From positions 2,480,001 to 2,544,000 of the forward strand of contig NW_004457624.1 of assembly GCF_000203815.1 (NCBI RefSeq): DNA of 64,000 bases, read 5' to 3'. This DNA is from Cavenderia fasciculata (Eukaryota; Evosea; Eumycetozoa; Acytosteliales; Cavenderiaceae). The notes beneath the pieces were generated by a model. The model had not been told where the DNA came from and did no database searches. It worked only from the letters and a program-made list of their open reading frames with translations. Made by a program: the position numbers and the translations under genes. The stretch's first letter is position 1. Every line of letters begins with the position of its first letter. Below are positions 2,188-47,037 of this stretch, piece after piece.

Positions 2188-4794
2188 CTCACTAGCACTA
2201 TAGGCAATAATACTGGGTTGATATAATTATTATTATTCTTATTATTTAGTGAATTATTATATTATTAATATTATTATTGATAGTTGTAGAGAGAATAGAA
2301 GAGGATGGCGGTGGTGAAGAGGATGAGAGGAATGAAGCTGAGGGTGAACGATTATAGATGAAGAGTACGCAGAGTCTTGTACCTCTCTAAATGACTAGGT
2401 AGTGCGATCTTGTAGACAGTAGGATGGTTGTAGTTGGAGGAGAATCGAAGGATGATAGTTTGTATTCGTTCTGTAATCGTATGTATTACTGATTCGTCGG
2501 TTTGGTTCATTAGAGCCAAGTGCCATCGGTTACATAATTCTAACGTCTTGTCCCAGTTTACTTTTATAATATGTCGCATATCACTTATCAATCTAGCTCG
2601 CAGGTATTGTTCAGTGAATGGTTCATCTCTTTGGTGACGTAGATCATTACGTCGGAACCATATTCGTTCTAGTGTTGCAGCGACCAAGTTTATAGTCATT
2701 GGAGTTTGTTTGAGGTTGAGGAGGGTGATGTCCCAGACTGGTGGTGGAATGTTGTTGGCAGCAGTAACCTCTTTCAGTATCTTCACTGGCAGCGTGGTCT
2801 CCTTGCATTGGAAGAACAAATGCTTGGAGGATTCATCTTTGCCACACGTCACACAGGTGGAGGCGACTGGGTCACCCCTGACGAGCGGGAGACATTTGGT
2901 TACGTATTTCCAAACCAGATCTCGACCCTTTGGTAGTACGATGGTAGATAGAGCAGCTAGTGCATTCATTGGATACACTCTGTCATCGGTTGCTAAGATC
3001 TTTTGGCCTGGGGTCGGGTCGTACACGTTCCACTTTTCGTTGGATATGGTCAGCCTTTGGAGGTACACTTGTTTGAGAGGTACTCTTCCTCTTTTGTCTG
3101 GTTCCATTGCTGGCTTGGGTACAGCCTCTCTGCTGACGTCGTAGGGTTGGGTAAGCTTTTCCCACTCGCTGCGGCAGAGGCGGACAAAATCGTTTGGTTT
3201 GTCTTGGTTGAGTTGGTCCATCCATGATTGGGCAAAGGAAACCTTTGCAACTCGGTCGTTCTTTACCTCGTGGAGGAACCTTTCGAACATCCATGCCTTT
3301 TGGGCACGGAGTCTAGCGTTGAGGTCCCAGAGGTTGAGACCACCTTGGTCGATCGATCGTATGGAGCGTTTCTTGGACATGGTTCTTTTGGTTGGCTTGG
3401 TTGGGTCTTTCTGACGGTCGTTGCTGAACATGAACCAATCAATAACCTTTTCCAATCTGGTGATTGCCTCGTGACTAGGTGATTCAAGGTACGTGAAATA
3501 ATTTAATTGTGACAGACCATATGTTTTGAGCAAAGCTAATTTACCTCTATAGTTGTTGTTGTGTTTAGGTTTCCATCTAATCAAATCGTTGATTACCTTG
3601 TCAATACGCTCTGGAAGGTGTGGTACCAAACCAAACTGGTTAAAGTAGTAGCCGAGGTAACGTTCTTTGCTTTCCTTGTCCATCAGTGGGTACGGTAAAT
3701 TGGTTGGACTGCCAGGTGACATGATCACACATTTGTCAGTGTTGACTTTGGATGATGTAGCTTTACAGAATAGCTGAATCCATTCGTCCATTAGTTTAAA
3801 TTCTCGGATGTTTTTGGCAAATGTAGACGTGTCGTCGGCAAACTGGAGTAGCTTTACCCAGTTGAGGTGGACAAGAGGCGGTGGCTTTCTCTGTTTGGTT
3901 CCGAAAGCTGGCGGTGGGAGCATAGAGAGAGAGACTGGTGGCTTTGCAGTTGTGGTATCGATTGGCAAACCTTGTATGCGGCCGTCATTGATGATGCTTC
4001 TCGCCAGTGGCTCGGCGATGAGGGCAAATAGCGTCGGTGATATTGGATCACCTTGCTTTGTGCCTCTGACGGTGTGGAATGGTTCAGACAGCGAGTCTCC
4101 TACTCGTACACGGACTGAAGAGTCTGCTAGCATGGACATAACAGCGTTGACTATCAGTGGTGGAGCACCCATCTTGGTCAAGGTTCGTTGGATGGCAGGG
4201 TGGGAGACAGAATCAAATGCCTTGGAAAAGTCGTAGAGAGTGGTGATGGCCTCTTTGTTGTCCTTGTTTGTCTCGAGTGCTTGCTTCATGACGATCAGAT
4301 TGTCGTGGATCAGACGTCCTGGGACAAAGCCCGTTTGGTAGGGGCTGATGACCTTTGGAAGGACTGCCAGTAGCCGGTTGTTGATAACTTTAGAGTAAAT
4401 CTTGTAATCCACGTTCAGCAGTGTGATTGGTCGGCGGTTGCCGATGTCGAGAGCGTCACCTTTGCCTTTGTAGATGGTGACTAAGATCCCCTTCTTCATT
4501 GCTGTTGGGGTACCGTGATGGAGCATCTGGTTGAACAGTCGGCAGAGAAAGGGGAGTAGTGGTCCTGCATAGTGGTGGTAGAACGACGCGGTGATGCCAT
4601 CCTCGCCCGGCGACTTGTGCTTGGCAGTAGTTACGATTGCTCGATGGATCTCTGCCTCGGTGATGTCGCTTTCCATTTTCTGTTTCTCGACTCTGGTGAG
4701 TTGGGGGTTCCAGTTTGCCAGCAGTTTTTTGTGGATGCTCACATTTTTTTCGGCCGAGTATAAATAGCGCAAAACTCCATTGGGAACAACCGAC
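2158..4794 (-). mobile_element. 5'-truncated non-LTR retrotransposon (LINE, TRE-like) upstream of a tRNA gene
   Basis: The element runs on the minus strand. Its coding region ends at 2352, a 3' untranslated stretch of about 160 bases follows, and an uninterrupted T block at about 2160-2187 is its poly-A tail. The reading frame stays open up to at least 4794, a few bases before the tRNA gene at 4801. There it stops abruptly without the endonuclease domain, so the 5' end is truncated. Dictyostelid TRE elements are LINEs that insert next to tRNA genes, and this arrangement fits that habit. I could not identify a target-site duplication. The element is clearly GC-richer than its surroundings. Confidence 0.85.
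2352..4792 (-). CDS. LINE ORF2 fragment: reverse transcriptase plus C-terminal zinc-finger domain
   Basis: About 810 codons are uninterrupted. The reverse-transcriptase core shows KGKGDALDIGNRRPITLLNVDYKI (fingers), a TGFVPGRLIHDN motif, DFSKAFDSV (catalytic Asp), GTKQGDPISPTLF and the catalytic LLQFADDTS box. Near the C-terminus, CVTCGKDESSKHLFFQC forms a C-x2-C-x7-H-x4-C cluster of the zf-RVT type seen in L1-clade ORF2 proteins. The APE endonuclease domain that normally precedes the polymerase is absent. There is no convincing start: the first residues come from TTG/CTA-type codons, so this copy probably makes no protein itself. The intact frame suggests a fairly recent insertion. Confidence 0.85.
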
Positions 4795-16568: not shown

Positions 16569-17034
16569 TCTTTCAAACTAAGTTATATATATGTCTCTTC
16601 TTTCTTTTTGAATGCTTGTCTCTCACTCTCCTATCTATCTATCTATCTATCTATATATATCCTCTTCTTTCTTTTCTTTTCTATATACTCTTTTTTGTTT
16701 TTAAAATTATTTGTTTGTACAAAAAGGTAGTTAAGAAAATAAAAAAAAAATAAAGTCAGCTTTGCAAGCAAGGAAAGGAAAGCTTTTGCTGAGTAAAAAT
16801 TCCCTAAAAAGGGAGGAAAAAAAAGTTAGGGACAGCACGAATAAACAAATGCTTTCTAATATCTTGATAATAAAGAAAAGATAAGAATCAATATTGATTC
16901 TTGATTTGTTTTTATAAATAATAATAATAAATAAATATTGACTTGTTCATGATGACGATGACAAGTAGTGGAATATATATAACTCCTTATTCTTTATATT
17001 TAAAATTAATGGTATTCGCGGGGTGGTTCAAGTA
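16569..17034. other. intergenic region with tetranucleotide repeat
   Basis: A (CTAT)n microsatellite lies at about 16632-16660, followed by AT-rich sequence. From about 16949 (GATGACGATGACAAGTAGTGG) the sequence is homologous to the 3' flank of the second small-peptide gene (20287 onward), but with an extra segment of about 60 bases. Confidence 0.5.
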
Positions 17035-17254
17035 TCACACAAGTTCATCACCAGCAACCTTGTTGGAAGCTTGTGATGTTTGCTTGGCAAATAGGTCTTG
17101 GAAATTGAATCCATTAGGGTTGTTGGTGGTAGCAGATGACGAGTATCCACCAGTTTGGATTTGAGAGGGGTTGGCTAATTGTTCTAAAACAAAAATATAA
17201 ATAAATATTATATTATAACATTTTCTAATATTTAATTAACTTACTAAATAACAT
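17035..17254 (-). CDS. small peptide gene, three-member family, copy A (52 aa)
   Basis: Exon 1 (17254-17245) is only ten bases, ATG TTA TTT A. A 61-base intron (GTAAGTTAAT to TTTTAG) leads to exon 2 (17183-17035), which completes MLFK then QLANPSQIQTGGYSSS, a variable T/N linker, GFNFQDLFAKQTS and the end SNKVAGDELV. Two more genes in this window (20312-20561 minus, 46305-46550 plus) share the same exon structure, donor, intron phase and ends. There is no signal peptide and no cysteine. The conserved ends and variable N/T middle indicate selection on a translated product. I do not recognise the family. This copy is linked to a relic of the Rad50-like gene tail. Confidence 0.8.
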
Positions 17255-17339
17255 GATTATAATTATTTGATTGATTTAATTGAATGGAAATAACAATATC
17301 CAAACAATGATTTTATACTTGTTGGTTTCATACAACATT

Positions 17340-17728
17340 TGGGTCTCGAAAAGCCACCACCCAACCCTCAAAACTTTGGCGTGGCGGATCAGTACTACTT
17401 TTTTTGACTTTTGTATGTTGAGGGAGGGAGGGAGGACTTGATTTAAATTTACTATATCTGTTGGGGGGTAGCTAGGGTTTAGGGTTTATTAAAAATCTTT
17501 TAATTATTTTTTTAAATTTCAACAAATTGATGTTTATTATTTAAATCATTAAATTGAAGATTTATAACATTGTCAAATTCTGATTGAACAGATTGATCGT
17601 GATCAATGACGACAATTGAATCTTTTTCTTTGAGATGATTACGAAGCAAGTCACCAGTCAATGTCATCTTGTCCATTTTCATCTCTACTACTATTACTTC
17701 CAATTGATAATGATGTAACTAACTTTCC
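17340..17728 (-). pseudogene. duplicated tail of the Mre11-Rad50 fusion gene, with internal deletion
   Basis: From about 17340 to 17728 the sequence repeats 20680-21288 at high identity. The 17512-17660 part reads LLRNHLKEKDSIVVIDHDQS and on to the same last residues, FVEI. Just upstream the copy jumps, within a short shared CA(A)GTCA-type boundary, to the equivalent of 21215. That removes about 220 bases covering the ABC signature and Walker B region, and homology ends at 17728. It has no start codon or ATPase core. It duplicates together with the small peptide gene, so it marks the end of a segmental duplication. Confidence 0.85.
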
Positions 17729-18191
17729 TCCTCATCAAAAAAATCATGATCATTCTGTGAGTGACTACCAATGAAATGACAGAAATCCCACTCATGTTTT
17801 CCAGTACGAAATTAACCTCCCCTCTCTCATTGTGGGGGTCGAAAGTGTTAAAAATGAATACCAAATGACAACCACTGTCTTTGTTTTTACTCTCAGAATG
17901 AATGATTTTGTTTAGATTCATCGTGGCTTGTTAATATAAATAAATTCTCTCAGTCTTTCAAAATACACAATCAAAAACCCCCTCATAACAAGACTCACTG
18001 TGAAAAGCAACGAGCTCATAGAATGTGAAAATACATTTATTAATATAACGGATCATTTCATTCACTCTACCATTGATCTGCTGATCAAACCAACACTTCA
18101 AATGAATTCAAATTCAATGCACGATAGCTCTCCTTGATTCAAAAGAAATACATACACATTGATAATTAAATACTATCTAGTTTGAGAAAAC
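17729..18191. other. intergenic region
   Basis: No gene seen. The left edge is the breakpoint of the duplication; the right part is the 5' flank of the PA14-like gene. Confidence 0.5.
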
Positions 18192-20136: not shown

Positions 20137-20311
20137 ATAATTATAAATAAATAAAATAACCACCCAAAGCTACATATCGATTGTTATTTTTCTAACAAAA
20201 AAAGTTTGTACCAACCAAGTAACTTTACATTTTTTAATATTTAAAATTTATTGTACAATAAATTCTTTGATTGTTTTTCTTAAGGAGATGATGATGATAA
20301 GTAGTAGAATA

Positions 20312-20561
20312 TCATACAACTTCATCACCTGAAAATTTGAAAGCAACTTTGTTGGCACCTAGTGATGTTTGGGTCGTAAATGGATCTTGGAAATTGAATT
20401 CATTTGCGGTGCTAGTTTTGTTTGCAGATGATGAGTATCCACCACTGGTTTGAATTTGAGAGAGGTTGGCTAATTGTTCTAAAACAAAAAAACAAAAAGA
20501 AAATCAACCAATCACAATTTACATATTTATATTTATGTATATATAACTTACTGAATAACAT
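20312..20561 (-). CDS. small peptide gene, three-member family, copy B (58 aa)
   Basis: Exon 1 (20561-20552) is ATG TTA TTC A. After a 73-base intron, exon 2 (20478-20312) gives MLFK, QLANLSQIQTSGGYSSS, a variable linker, EFNFQDPFTTQTSLGANKVA, then an insertion FKFS and the end GDEVV. It differs from copies A and C at the end (GDEVV for GDELV, plus the FKFS insertion), but keeps the frame, stop codon and splice sites. The 3' flank ATATTCTACTACTTATCATC is shared with copy C. It lies about 280 bases from the end of the Mre11-Rad50 fusion gene, both on the minus strand. Confidence 0.8.
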
Positions 20562-20841
20562 GATTATAATTATTTGATTGATTTAATTGAATTAAATGAA
20601 AATAACTATCTGTTATATTTATATATATCCAAAACTATGATTTTATACTTGTTGTTGGTCTAAATTGAACACTTGGTTCTCGAAAAGCCACCCCTCAAAA
20701 CTTTGGCGTGGCGGATCATTATACTTTTTTTGGCTTTTCTATGTTGAGGGAGGGAGGGAGGGAGGACTTGATTTAAATTTACTCTATCTGTTGGGGGTAG
20801 GTAGGGTTTAGGGTTTATTAATAATCTTTTAATTATTTTTT

Positions 20842-23800
20842 TCAAATTTCAACAAATTGATGTTTATTATTTAAATCATTAAATTGAAGATTTAAAACAT
20901 TGTCAAATTCTGATTGAACAGATTGGTCGTGATCAATGACGACAATTGAATCTTTTTCTTTGAGATGATTACGAAGCAAGTCACAAATGACAGGCTTGAT
21001 CGTTTGGTCTAGATGGTTGGTTAGTTCATCTACCACCAATGTTGTGATTCTAGATCCAACATGGTTGAATATAACCTCGCTGAGTGCAAATGGACTGTAT
21101 GACAACTCTACACATCTTCTTTGACCTCCAGATAAAGAGTAGAAAGATCTTTCTGTGATTCTACCTTTATCATTATCATCAATTTCATATACTTGTAATG
21201 ATAAATCACCATTGTCAATGTCATCATGTCCATTTTCATCTCTAGTATTACTAATTGACAATGATGTAAATAACTTTCCTTTTGACAAGATTGATAAATA
21301 TTCATTTGCATAATTTTCAATTTCTTTGACAACAGAGTTTAATACCATGACTGATATACCGTCACTTCCAAAGGCACGTTCCCAAAACACAAGTCTATCC
21401 AATTCCCTAGACTCTGTTTCAATGTTGTTTTGTAGGTTGGTTGAATCTTGTTGTAGTTTATCGATTTGTGCCATTCTTGCTTTTGACTGTGATTCGAATG
21501 GATTGACTTCATTCTCTAGTGCTTGTTTTTGACGTGTTAAATCTTCAATCGTTCTCTGAGAAAATTCGATACGATATCCAAAATTACCCTCTTGAATTTT
21601 AAGTTGTTGTAATGATGCATTGATCCTTTCACTTGTCTTTCCAAATCCAGTCATGGTTGTACGATTCTCTAGATTCAAAGCATCAATCTCTTGATCAATC
21701 GATAATTTTTGGTTATCCAAATCGGCCAATTCACTCTGCTTTTCTTTTACTCGTTGTTGTAGTGTTTCCATCTTGGTCAGTTGCAATGATTGGTCAATCA
21801 GTTGACCGCACTCTCCACATTGTACATTATCCAATCCCTGCTTACTATGCTTTTCTAAATGTTTTTTAGATTTTTGCAATTCTGCTATCTCCTTGTTGAT
21901 ATTTCCAACCTTGAATTCATTGTTGAATAGACGTTTATGTGTCATGGTATGACGTCTATGGTATTCTTCTTGATACTCTTTTCTCTCCAAATCCAAATGT
22001 TTCATATCATTTAATAGTTCGTCTCTTTGTTCTTGTATTTCTTGTTGTTGTTGTTTTTTAAGATTATTTTGAATATCAAGTTCTTCCAATTCCCTTTTCT
22101 CCTTTTCCAATTGATTTTCTATTCTTTTTACTCTTGTTTGACGATTTGAGTCCCATTCAAGAGTTGATTCTTCATAATCGATATCTGTCCAAGTTGATAA
22201 TTGAGCAGTCATTCTATTCAATTTTGTTTCCAATTCGGTTACCAAATTCTCTTGTTTCTTTCTTTGTTCCTTTGCAATCTTGTGAGCGGGTATACATAGA
22301 CCGAGCGAGAAGGCACGTGACAACAACTCTTTTCGACGACGATCACTGTCTGTCACGAAATTACTGATACTACCCTGACCCATATACACACACATTCTAA
22401 AGAGGTCATAGTCCAACCCAATAATATTATTGATCAGCGACTGTTGATCGCTTACACCTTGTCTGAGTGTTGCATCCAATCCATTGATTTCAACCTTGGC
22501 ACCCTTTCCTCTAGTTTTTGAACGAGTAATGGAAATGTCACGACCATCTACCTGTAATCTAACGGTGACCTTGCACATCTTGGCTCGATCATTAATCACC
22601 TCATCACCTTTGATAGAAGATGATGAAGATGCTTGTTTTCTAGGTGAAGTGTTACCATAGATTGCCCAAACCATCGATTCGAATAGACTACTCTTTCCAG
22701 ATCCCATCTGTCCACGAATCATCAACATTCGATAATCAGACAGTGACAATGTCAATGGTCCTGTAATACTACAGAAATCAGTAACTTCAATCTCTTTAAT
22801 TGATACCTTTCTACCCATTGGTCTAATCATTGTATCTTTTACCAAATCCAATACATCCATTCCTTTTTTAACCATCTCTTCATTATTGATACTATCTAAT
22901 GTTGGTTGTTTCAATTTTACATATTCAATTATAAAATCATCCAATGATTTATGATTATTATTATATTTCTCTTTTAATTTTGAAATATCAAAAGTAGTAG
23001 AAAAAGTAGATGAAGTAGATGATGATGAAGAAGATGATGAGGAGGGGATACTATTATTATTATTATTATTTGATTCTTGATTAATCATAACTCTTCTAAT
23101 ATCTAAAAGAGGAGGTAAAGATTCCAAAGTATTGATAAATTCATTAGATTTCATTGATTCTTTGGTTGCTCTAATCTCTACAATATCATTCTTTTGAACT
23201 TTTGATGATAATGATAAAGTTGACTTGAAATCTTGTGGATAGGTTAATCTCCAATGTTTTGGAGTATCATCGAAATTGATAAATTGAGGTTGAATAGAAT
23301 GAGAGGATACAATAGCAACACCATGTGGGTCATTCATTTCACCAAAGTTTTGTTGATATGGACTACCTATATACCAAGAGTTGTTTCCTATTAATTGTCT
23401 CTTGTGATAATGACCACAATAAGTAGCACGTAGACTAGACAATAGAGAAGCATCTACTTTACCACTAGACAAATATCCACCGTTTGAAGTGGCACCTTTC
23501 AATTCTGCATGTGCAAATACAGTCCAATCCTTTGCATTATCAATGCCTCCTTGTTGTTCTACCAAATCCTTGAATAATTGGTTTTGTGCAGAGTTTGATT
23601 CTCTCCATGGTAGATAGGCACATTTCTCTTGTTCATTGATGATTGGGTCTGTAGCCACTTGAATGTTATCAAATAGACGAAAAAACTCTATTCCATGAAT
23701 GATACCATCAACACTAACTTGATCATGATTACCTGGAATAAAGATGGCATCGACACCATCCTTTTTCCAACGATCAAACTCTTTGAGCAATGCATCAATA

Positions 23801-24154
23801 TGACGCACCTGTACAATATTTCTTTGATGCCAAAAATCACCTAAAAAGACAACTGGCAACCCTTTACTAGTCGATAGATCACGTACTCTTGACAATACAT
23901 CGATGGTTCGATCAAGTGTTTTCGATGACACATGTAAATCTGTAAATAATAATTTCTTCCATCTAATAAAGAACATGTTAGAGATTGACTATACATATAC
24001 ATATAATAATTACATACTCGGTTGATGGTTTATTTGAACTACTACTATAGTTTCTTTGTCCAACAAGTACATTTGTAGTTGTATTTGTATTAACTAGTCG
24101 TACTTGATTGACACATGATAATGATTTAGATGAAGATAATAATAATCTATTCAT
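20842..24154 (-). CDS. mitochondrial-type SbcD/Mre11-SbcC/Rad50 fusion protein
   Basis: Two exons (24154-24018, 23962-20842) give 1085 residues. The 46-residue first exon is Ser/Asn/Arg-rich without acids and ends VGQRNYSSSSN, like a cleavable mitochondrial presequence. Next comes a calcineurin-like nuclease domain of the SbcD/Mre11 type: TDLHV (about 53-57), GDFWHQR (87), GNHD (123-126), HAE (197) and GHYHKR (229). A Ser/Asn linker leads to an SbcC/Rad50-type ATPase: Walker A GQMGSGKSS (about 463), short coiled coils around a zinc-hook CGEC (761-764), signature SLSGGQRR (988), Walker B TLVVDE (1020) and H-loop VVIDHD (1056). All catalytic motifs look intact. Nuclease and ATPase are normally two proteins (SbcD+SbcC, Mre11+Rad50, phage T4 gp47+gp46). 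The coiled coil is short, closer to phage or bacterial than nuclear Rad50. Predicted role: processing or degrading DNA ends in mitochondria. Confidence 0.9.
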
Positions 24155-46304: not shown

Positions 46305-46550
46305 ATGTTATTCAGTAAGTGGTTTTATTTATTTAAATTACATGTTAATTGATTTTGTGTAATTTTTTTTTAATTTTTTTTAGAACACTTAGCCAACCTC
46401 TCCCAAATCCAAACTGGTGGATACTCGTCATCAGCTACCAACAACACTAGTACCAACAGTACCAACACTAATGGATTCAATTTCCAAGATGCATTTACCA
46501 CTCAAACATCACTAGGTGCCAACAAAGTTGCTGGTGATGAACTTGTGTGA
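46305..46550 (+). CDS. small peptide gene, three-member family, copy C (58 aa)
   Basis: Exon 1 (46305-46314) is ATG TTA TTC A, with a 69-base intron from GTAAGTGG to TTTTTTTAG. Exon 2 (46384-46550) gives MLFK, HLANLSQIQTGGYSSS, a 20-residue Asn/Thr/Ser linker, GFNFQDAFTTQTSLG and ANKVAGDELV. Identity to copies A and B covers both ends; the linker length varies. It lies on the opposite strand, 26-29 kb away, so the family is dispersed and not only tandem. It has no signal peptide. Many identical codons with scattered silent changes argue for purifying selection. Confidence 0.8.
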
Positions 46551-47037
46551 TATTCTACTACTTATCATCATCATCATCATCTCCTTTTAACCCTTGAAAA
46601 AAGGATGATCACCATCATTATTGTTTTAGATTTCATTGTTTTGATGTACATATATATAAATAAATAAAAATCAAATCATTTTTACTCTAAAATAAATAAA
46701 AGTTGAAATAAATATTATTATTATTATTATTATTATTTTTATTATCATTCCTAAAACTATTCAAAGAAGATATAAATGATAAGATACAAGAAGATAGCTG
46801 TCTAGATACAACATAACCAATATTTCTTTATGATTGATTGATTGATTGATTGATTGTGTTTTGTTTTTTTTTGTTGTTTCATTGCAGCGCGAGGAATGTT
46901 TTGTGAGAATTATTATTATTATTATTATTATAATATATATAAGATTGCTATTATTATTATGATATGATTATTATTATTTATTATTATTATTAATTAATTA
47001 TTTGTTATTATTATTATTGTTATTTATAAGATTAAAT
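46551..47037. other. intergenic region with ATT repeats
   Basis: TCATCATCATCATC just after the peptide gene, ATT arrays near 46715 and 46910, and TTGATTGATTGATTG near 46830. No gene seen. Confidence 0.55.

Follow-up and report, generated by a model that had tools for sequence, protein, structure and literature searches.

A spliced nuclear gene of Cavenderia fasciculata for a phage-like single-chain SbcD-SbcC protein with a candidate mitochondrial presequence

Fusions of Mre11 and Rad50 (SbcDC) into a single chain have already been described (Yoshida, Claverie and Ogata, 2011; PMC3175470). In the available text of that paper, the eukaryotic hosts are D. discoideum, P. pallidum (Polysphondylium pallidum), Physcomitrella, a diatom and two Micromonas; the other carriers are five bacterial strains, Mimivirus and a Bacillus phage. 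Apart from Deferribacter, every cellular host also owns a normal, separate set, and a viral origin was proposed for the fusions, which fall outside the canonical clades (PMC3175470). Here we describe a gene in a 64-kb stretch of the Cavenderia fasciculata genome (contig NW_004457624.1, positions 2,480,001 to 2,544,000; hereafter the window) that joins an SbcD/Mre11-type nuclease to an SbcC/Rad50-type ATPase and is a new member of the published fusion family. A preliminary description of this DNA had stated that known systems keep the two activities as two proteins, a statement refuted by the fusions published in 2011, because of which its main claim to novelty also falls (PMC3175470). What is new here for this family is the evidence for a presequence. 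Mitochondria are named once in the available passages of PMC3175470, regarding octocoral MutS, and among the titles, abstract starts and passages searched we found no paper that places a fusion in mitochondria or states the site of its action in dictyostelids (supplements and subscription journals lay outside the search). The dictyostelid fusion is likewise unmentioned in the passages retrieved on Dictyostelium telomeres and nucleases, Physcomitrella organelle stability and Ostreococcus viruses. We put at about 0.52 the probability that this nuclear, spliced gene encodes a single-chain, phage-like SbcD-SbcC nuclease-ATPase that is led by a presequence and acts on mitochondrial DNA.

The fusions of D. 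discoideum (Q8T663) and P. pallidum (D3AVR3) have the same nuclease-then-ATPase order and coexist with canonical MRE11 and RAD50 (PMC3175470, in the parts available); we presume that the C. fasciculata gene is their ortholog. The preliminary description had asked whether a separate nuclear pair exists, and both members are present as separate genes: MRE11 at C19:419 kb, identified by PF04152 (4.2e-43), and RAD50 at C8:163 kb. The pair and the fusion belong to the same fold families, whereas only the pair is encoded by separate genes and only its MRE11 carries PF04152 (Mre11_DNA_bind), a domain absent from the Pfam matches of the fusion and present in MRE11 only in the genome search. Furthermore, blastp of the fusion against nuclear MRE11 and RAD50 gave no match at E 10. 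Mimivirus R555, from a virus of amoebae, is a single-chain Mre11-Rad50 like the protein described here. However, R555 has 1351 amino acids (aa) and a coiled coil of cellular length, as given in the accessible text of PMC3175470, whereas the C. fasciculata protein has 1085 aa and a short coiled coil.

The gene runs from 24154 to 20842 on the minus strand of the window (C21:2,500,842-2,504,154, in an assembly of 31.0 Mb and 21 contigs) and encodes the 1085-aa protein in two exons (Table 1). The fusion is independent of the splice call because both halves sit inside exon 2, in one open frame. This agrees with the single chain proposed in the preliminary description, the spliced leader bringing the product to its full length. 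We tested four AG acceptors lying up to ~80 nt from the donor; a single one preserves the open frame (1085 aa, single terminal stop), and the others give 54, 54 and 127 stops.

The nuclease motifs and the ATPase motifs, the latter from Walker A to the H-loop, are intact, as the preliminary description had reported. The nuclease, whose residues are numbered from exon 2 (+45 gives the whole-protein number), contains DLH, GDFWH, GNHD, AHAE and GHYH. In an alignment of the fusion with 27 viral SbcD frames (A4, 28 rows), D9, H11, G42, D43, H46, G78, N79, H80, H152, G184, H185 and H187 are invariant and D81 is nearly so. The ATPase carries Walker A (GQMGSGKS at 418; 22713-22690), a CGEC zinc hook (716; 21819-21808), the signature LSGGQ (944; 21135-21121), Walker B (LVVDEL at 976; 21039-21022) and the H-loop (VVIDHD at 1008; 20943-20926), and its coiled coil proved to be short, as claimed. 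Two Pfam models, AAA_23 (1.6e-16) and Metallophos (4.1e-6), scored above cut-off; SbcC_Walker_B (0.029) fell under its own. We modelled the halves separately with AlphaFold2. The SbcD-half model (predicted local distance difference test, pLDDT, 74.6) matches Mre11/SbcD structures (best E 1.2e-13), and the SbcC-half model, of modest confidence (pLDDT 67.7; predicted template modelling score, pTM, 0.43), matches Rad50/SMC heads (best E 5.5e-15). In the model, the helical segment between the halves may form a helix-loop-helix (HLH)-like region or the connection to the ATPase.

Mitochondrial presequences, by the rule used here, are basic, acid-free, Ser-rich leaders with an R-x-(Y/F/L)/S site. The leader encoded by exon 1, MNRLLLSSSKSLSCVNQVRLVNTNTTTNVLVGQRNYSSSSNKPSTE, fits this rule in composition and site: it is acid-free over 45 residues, has five K/R, is rich in Ser and ends in QRNYSSSS. 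Only one of 32 background N-termini was acid-free (an FtsJ-type methyltransferase) and none was acid-free with a net charge of at least +4; these N-termini start at the first ATG, unverified as a start, of long frames in the window (the leaderless exon-2 frame included) and in three other 10-kb stretches. A Markov control of 20,000 first-order upstream sequences yielded an in-frame spliceable leader in 106 cases, 14 of them acid-free with at least four K/R, and none that also had R-x-[YFL]-[SA], the feature list having been picked after the leader was seen. Furthermore, VQRYYSSS occurs at the end of the leader of the succinate dehydrogenase cytochrome subunit (SDHC; PF01127, 8.2e-9) encoded by this genome. 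The leader reported in the preliminary description is credible on its composition, its QRNYSSSS end and the 0/20,000 of the Markov control. These features suggest that exon 1 encodes a presequence for mitochondria, with cleavage near QRN/YSSSS, and that the fusion protein is probably mitochondrial.

Two features of the locus count against import. Translation from an in-frame ATG at 23976, inside the intron, could yield a protein without the leader (MFFIRWKK..., MFFIRWKKLLFTDLH), and 618 of 2000 shuffles had a hydrophobic moment as high as the 0.40 of the leader. The leader of SDHC, taken as a control, fails the moment test as well (1585 of 2000 shuffles as high), and the moment did not discriminate. 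A rival reading gives the same protein another address, the nucleus, the cytosol or both, reached for example by starting at the intron ATG; there it would supplement nuclear MRE11-RAD50 as an additional nuclease for DNA ends. The N-terminus of the leaderless form is long enough for a phage-type fold, and the leader is unexceptional in its amphipathic moment. We consider this location unlikely: a spliced leader with all features is improbable by chance, it resembles the leaders of SDHC and RecA from the same genome, and canonical MRE11-RAD50 already serves the nucleus. The intron ATG might also be a switch between two destinations.

The preliminary description had also proposed a bacterial or phage derivation for the protein. 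Judged by their profile and pairwise scores, which oppose the nuclear pair as parent and leave phage versus bacterium unsettled, both halves appear clearly prokaryotic or phage-type rather than nuclear. In tblastn searches, 1056 of 50,697 phage records matched the fusion, and in 238 of these the match spanned 80% or more of the query; among 72,556 plasmid records, 212 matched and none covered more than 80%. The best PHROG matches of the fusion are PHROG_77 (SbcC; 7.1e-63, residues 251-1027) and PHROG_100 (SbcD; 9.1e-40, residues 5-372), and its best NCBIfam model is SbcC (1.7e-21). As controls, one of five exon pieces of nuclear RAD50 matched PHROG_77 (2.6e-4) and one of three pieces of nuclear MRE11 matched PHROG_100 (2e-7), in piecewise scans that are less sensitive than whole-protein scans.

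Pairwise comparisons gave phage proteins as the best matches. In a blastp set with E up to 10 and a database size of 1e8, the SbcD half matched all 53 viral rows and none of the four cellular rows (E. coli, two methanogens and its own MRE11). The four best rows for the SbcC half were three Herelleviridae and one Rhizobium phage (104, 93, 82 and 78 bits), the top one SPO1-like, followed by a fifth viral row (58 bits) and E. coli SbcC (52 bits, 1e-5); nuclear RAD50 did not match this half in the same set. Back-translation of the motif PYQQNFG[DE] located 57 viral-contig loci, all with an SbcD-type frame (longest 424 aa), and two loci in the bacterial and archaeal collection, each within a long frame of another kind. 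A fold search of the SbcD half in BFVD put phage proteins on top, and the first named giant-virus protein stood at rank 16, some ranks being unnamed. Tailed-phage gp47/gp46 proteins (T4 and the SPO1/Twort-like Herelleviridae) are the best single matches and have in common with the fusion a GSPYQQNFGE element, a short coiled coil and a CxxC hook. However, they are unfused, as the SbcD-type frames of at most 424 aa at the 57 viral motif loci (53 uncut) illustrate.

We considered direct descent from a fusion that already existed in a phage. In the annotation of Listeria phage LMTA-57 (KJ591605, NC_047871; 59521-62550), a single 1009-aa chain covers both SbcD and SbcC. Relatives of LMTA-57, 97-98% identical, mostly carry two or three features. 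Because match lengths vary by one or two bases from record to record, the LMTA-57 chain would be a sequencing error or a very recent fusion. We rejected it as a source: it is one isolate (two records), and its relatives mostly have separate features.

A viral source is our leading guess, and several observations weigh against it. Whole E. coli SbcC and SbcD score well with the same profiles (PHROG_77, 8.1e-58; PHROG_100, 2e-27), as does a methanogen pair (2.8e-49 and 1.5e-15), so that PHROG_77 and PHROG_100 separate the fusion from the nuclear pair and not from bacterial SbcCD. E. coli SbcC scores above 10 of the 15 viral SbcC rows with the SbcC half. The motif PYQQNFG[DE] was picked from the fusion and one viral relative, and the viral blastp rows, gathered with the same query, are no fair sample; the weight of the blastp set therefore lies solely in its top scores and in the lack of SbcD matches to cellular rows. 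In addition, in the corrected SbcC tree (18 rows) the fusion groups weakly with E. coli and methanogen SbcC (70/0).

Such observations fit a non-viral origin, in which an ancient SbcCD-like gene, whether bacterial, endosymbiont-derived or paralogous, fused and diverged, and fast evolution of this gene and of phage genes produced the phage-like look. Fusions are also known in bacteria (PMC3175470, in the parts available). E. coli SbcCD shares with the fusion the two-domain architecture, the hook and the PHROG_77 and PHROG_100 matches, whereas it is encoded by two genes and its 1048-aa SbcC has a long coiled coil. We regard the non-viral origin as possible but doubtful. The best pairwise matches are phage proteins, and the SbcD half has no blastp match to methanogen SbcD or, at E 10, to that of E. 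coli. Furthermore, PHROG_19980 is the best fit of both cellular SbcC proteins (E. coli, 1.2e-78; methanogen, 2.4e-73), and the fusion reverses this preference, fitting PHROG_77 and reaching just 2.3e-8 with PHROG_19980.

Trees gave a viral-side placement for the SbcD half, with cellular sampling that is thin throughout and with a set that leaves the published eukaryotic fusions outside. The SbcD trees had 58 rows and then 29, after metagenomic viral rows were reduced from 39 to 11 and the locus L024, a long branch attached to the fusion, was dropped. They put the SbcD half on the viral side (92/96 with 58 rows; 75/78 with 29). The SbcC trees had 20 rows, 19 (L024 out) and 18 (the methanogen row 'metha2' out). 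In the first two, 'metha2' was cut by a contig end, its supposed C-lobe being coiled coil, and in the 20-row tree four rows, in which the script missed Walker A, entered with their first 230 residues. A position beside SPO1-like phages was lost for SbcD and is weak for SbcC (41/25, 19 rows). The preliminary description had allowed that both halves might fall inside nuclear Mre11 and Rad50. The best trees place neither there, but approximately unbiased (AU) tests fail to reject it, for the fusion with nuclear MRE11 (p 0.163, 29 rows) as for the fusion with nuclear RAD50 (p 0.322 with 19 rows; 0.398 with 18). Also unrejected, and in keeping with the non-viral origin, are the fusion with all canonical SbcD/MRE11 (p 0.254, 29 rows) and with SbcC (p 0.375, 19 rows). 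None of the trees resolves the nearest relative of the fusion or separates a phage from a bacterial source. With weak trees and thin sampling, the term 'phage-like' therefore refers to best matches.

A mitochondrial SbcD-SbcC chain could work as follows, in an order of steps that follows the biochemistry of SbcCD and T4 gp46/47. Exon 1 would direct import and be cut near QRN/YSSSS, and in the matrix two chains would pair via their ATPase heads and CxxC hook. ATP binding and hydrolysis would then gate a Mn-dependent nuclease acting on mitochondrial DNA, where it would trim or nick hairpins and double-strand ends and leave 3' tails that a bacterial-type RecA could use for recombination-dependent repair or replication restart. 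The fusion itself would fix a 1:1 stoichiometry of nuclease and ATPase. The biochemistry of T4 gp46/47 is summarized in the available text of PMC3175470.

Candidate partners are encoded in the same genome. A bacterial-type RecA (PF00154, 3.5e-96; C21:1.095 Mb, L085) has a basic, acid-free, Ser-rich leader (MLNLYNLTKRTVHSQVINSLRSSS...). Its upstream region reads MLNLYNLTKRTVHSQVINSLRSSSTSISLLNNQNNSSYISSSSFSKKSS at a GTATGT, after which stops sever the leader from the body; because stops lie between them, leader and body would be on separate exons, as in the fusion gene, with the splice predicted. A second, divergent RecA-family gene (L087:2337-1354 on the minus strand, C17:821 kb; 1.1e-22) matches RecA positions 28-192 of 262, and further pieces may lie downstream. 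It begins MLRSVVVNIPLLNYTFLKSISSRTTN..., a presequence-like start with ITRYYC and one acid in the first 45 residues, and matches the UvsX-like PHROG_97 (1.8e-27), a family also matched by ordinary RecA. The genome further encodes a single-subunit phage-type RNA polymerase (3.8e-163) and a Toprim protein with one sub-cut-off DnaB_C match, which is Twinkle-like. A less favorable result is that the genome profile search found no PF00436-type single-stranded DNA-binding protein (SSB), although an intron-split gene could escape it. A broader proposal, that DNA maintenance in dictyostelid mitochondria is virus-style and recombination-dependent, with the fusion and one or two RecA-family recombinases, all with presequence-like leaders, beside the phage-type RNA polymerase and Twinkle-like helicase, is tentative, and we hold it less likely to be right than wrong. 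Under this proposal, end resection would be one more virus-derived component of a mitochondrial system for replication and repair.

A mitochondrial role for the fusion is plausible. We know of no dedicated end-resection or hairpin-opening machine in most mitochondria, and this role would provide them with an SbcCD-type engine for both reactions. It would also account for a second Mre11/Rad50 kept beside the nuclear pair. The role is testable in a tractable laboratory amoeba.

Third-position GC of the fusion frame is 0.259, and eight neighboring frames span 0.237-0.403. We ruled out contamination on the grounds that the contig is 3.4 Mb long, that neighboring frames look eukaryotic by eye and that their third-position GC is similar. 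When exon 2 was searched against the genome, the gene was recovered together with a single additional fragment, a broken duplicate of its 3' end (Table 1) that is evidently a decayed tandem copy outside the working gene. This broken neighbor speaks for a reading in which the fusion is a decaying or non-functional horizontally acquired gene. We regard decay as very improbable: the 3.1-kb frame is free of stops, the catalytic motifs are intact, third-position GC is within the range of the neighbors, and fusions are published in two other dictyostelids (PMC3175470, in its available text).

Table 1. Coordinates of the fusion gene and its partial duplicate in the 64-kb window
Feature	Position	Strand	Description
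Exon 1	24018..24154	-	137 nt; leader MNRLLLSSSKSLSCVNQVRLVNTNTTTNVLVGQRNYSSSSNKPSTE, 46 aa including the split codon; candidate mitochondrial presequence with R-N-Y/S-S site
Intron	23963..24017	-	55 nt, GT-AG, GTATGT...TTATTAG; CTAAC upstream of the acceptor
Exon 2	20842..23962	-	3121 nt including the stop codon; entire fusion body in a single open frame
SbcD/Mre11-type nuclease and cap domains	23065..23958	-	Approximately exon-2 residues 3-300; DLH, GDFWH, GNHD, H152, GHYH
Ser/Asn-rich linker, then helical segment	22816..23064	-	Low confidence in the model (pLDDT <50 at 296-362)
SbcC/Rad50-type ABC ATPase with short coiled coil	20845..22815	-	Motif, profile and fold matches
Broken downstream copy	17033..17729	-	Last ~49 codons of the fusion gene (92% aa identity) and part of the next gene

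The duplication pairs 17033-17729 with 20310-20984 and 21203-21280, at ~82-85% DNA identity, and takes in a short inner piece of the fusion gene and the start of the following gene besides the terminal codons. Another repeat, at ~46305-46575 of the window, is 75% identical, in inverted orientation, to 20287-20561 downstream of the fusion gene. The window also holds, at 2352-4772, a long reverse-transcriptase-like frame of the long interspersed nuclear element (LINE) type, recognized by eye.

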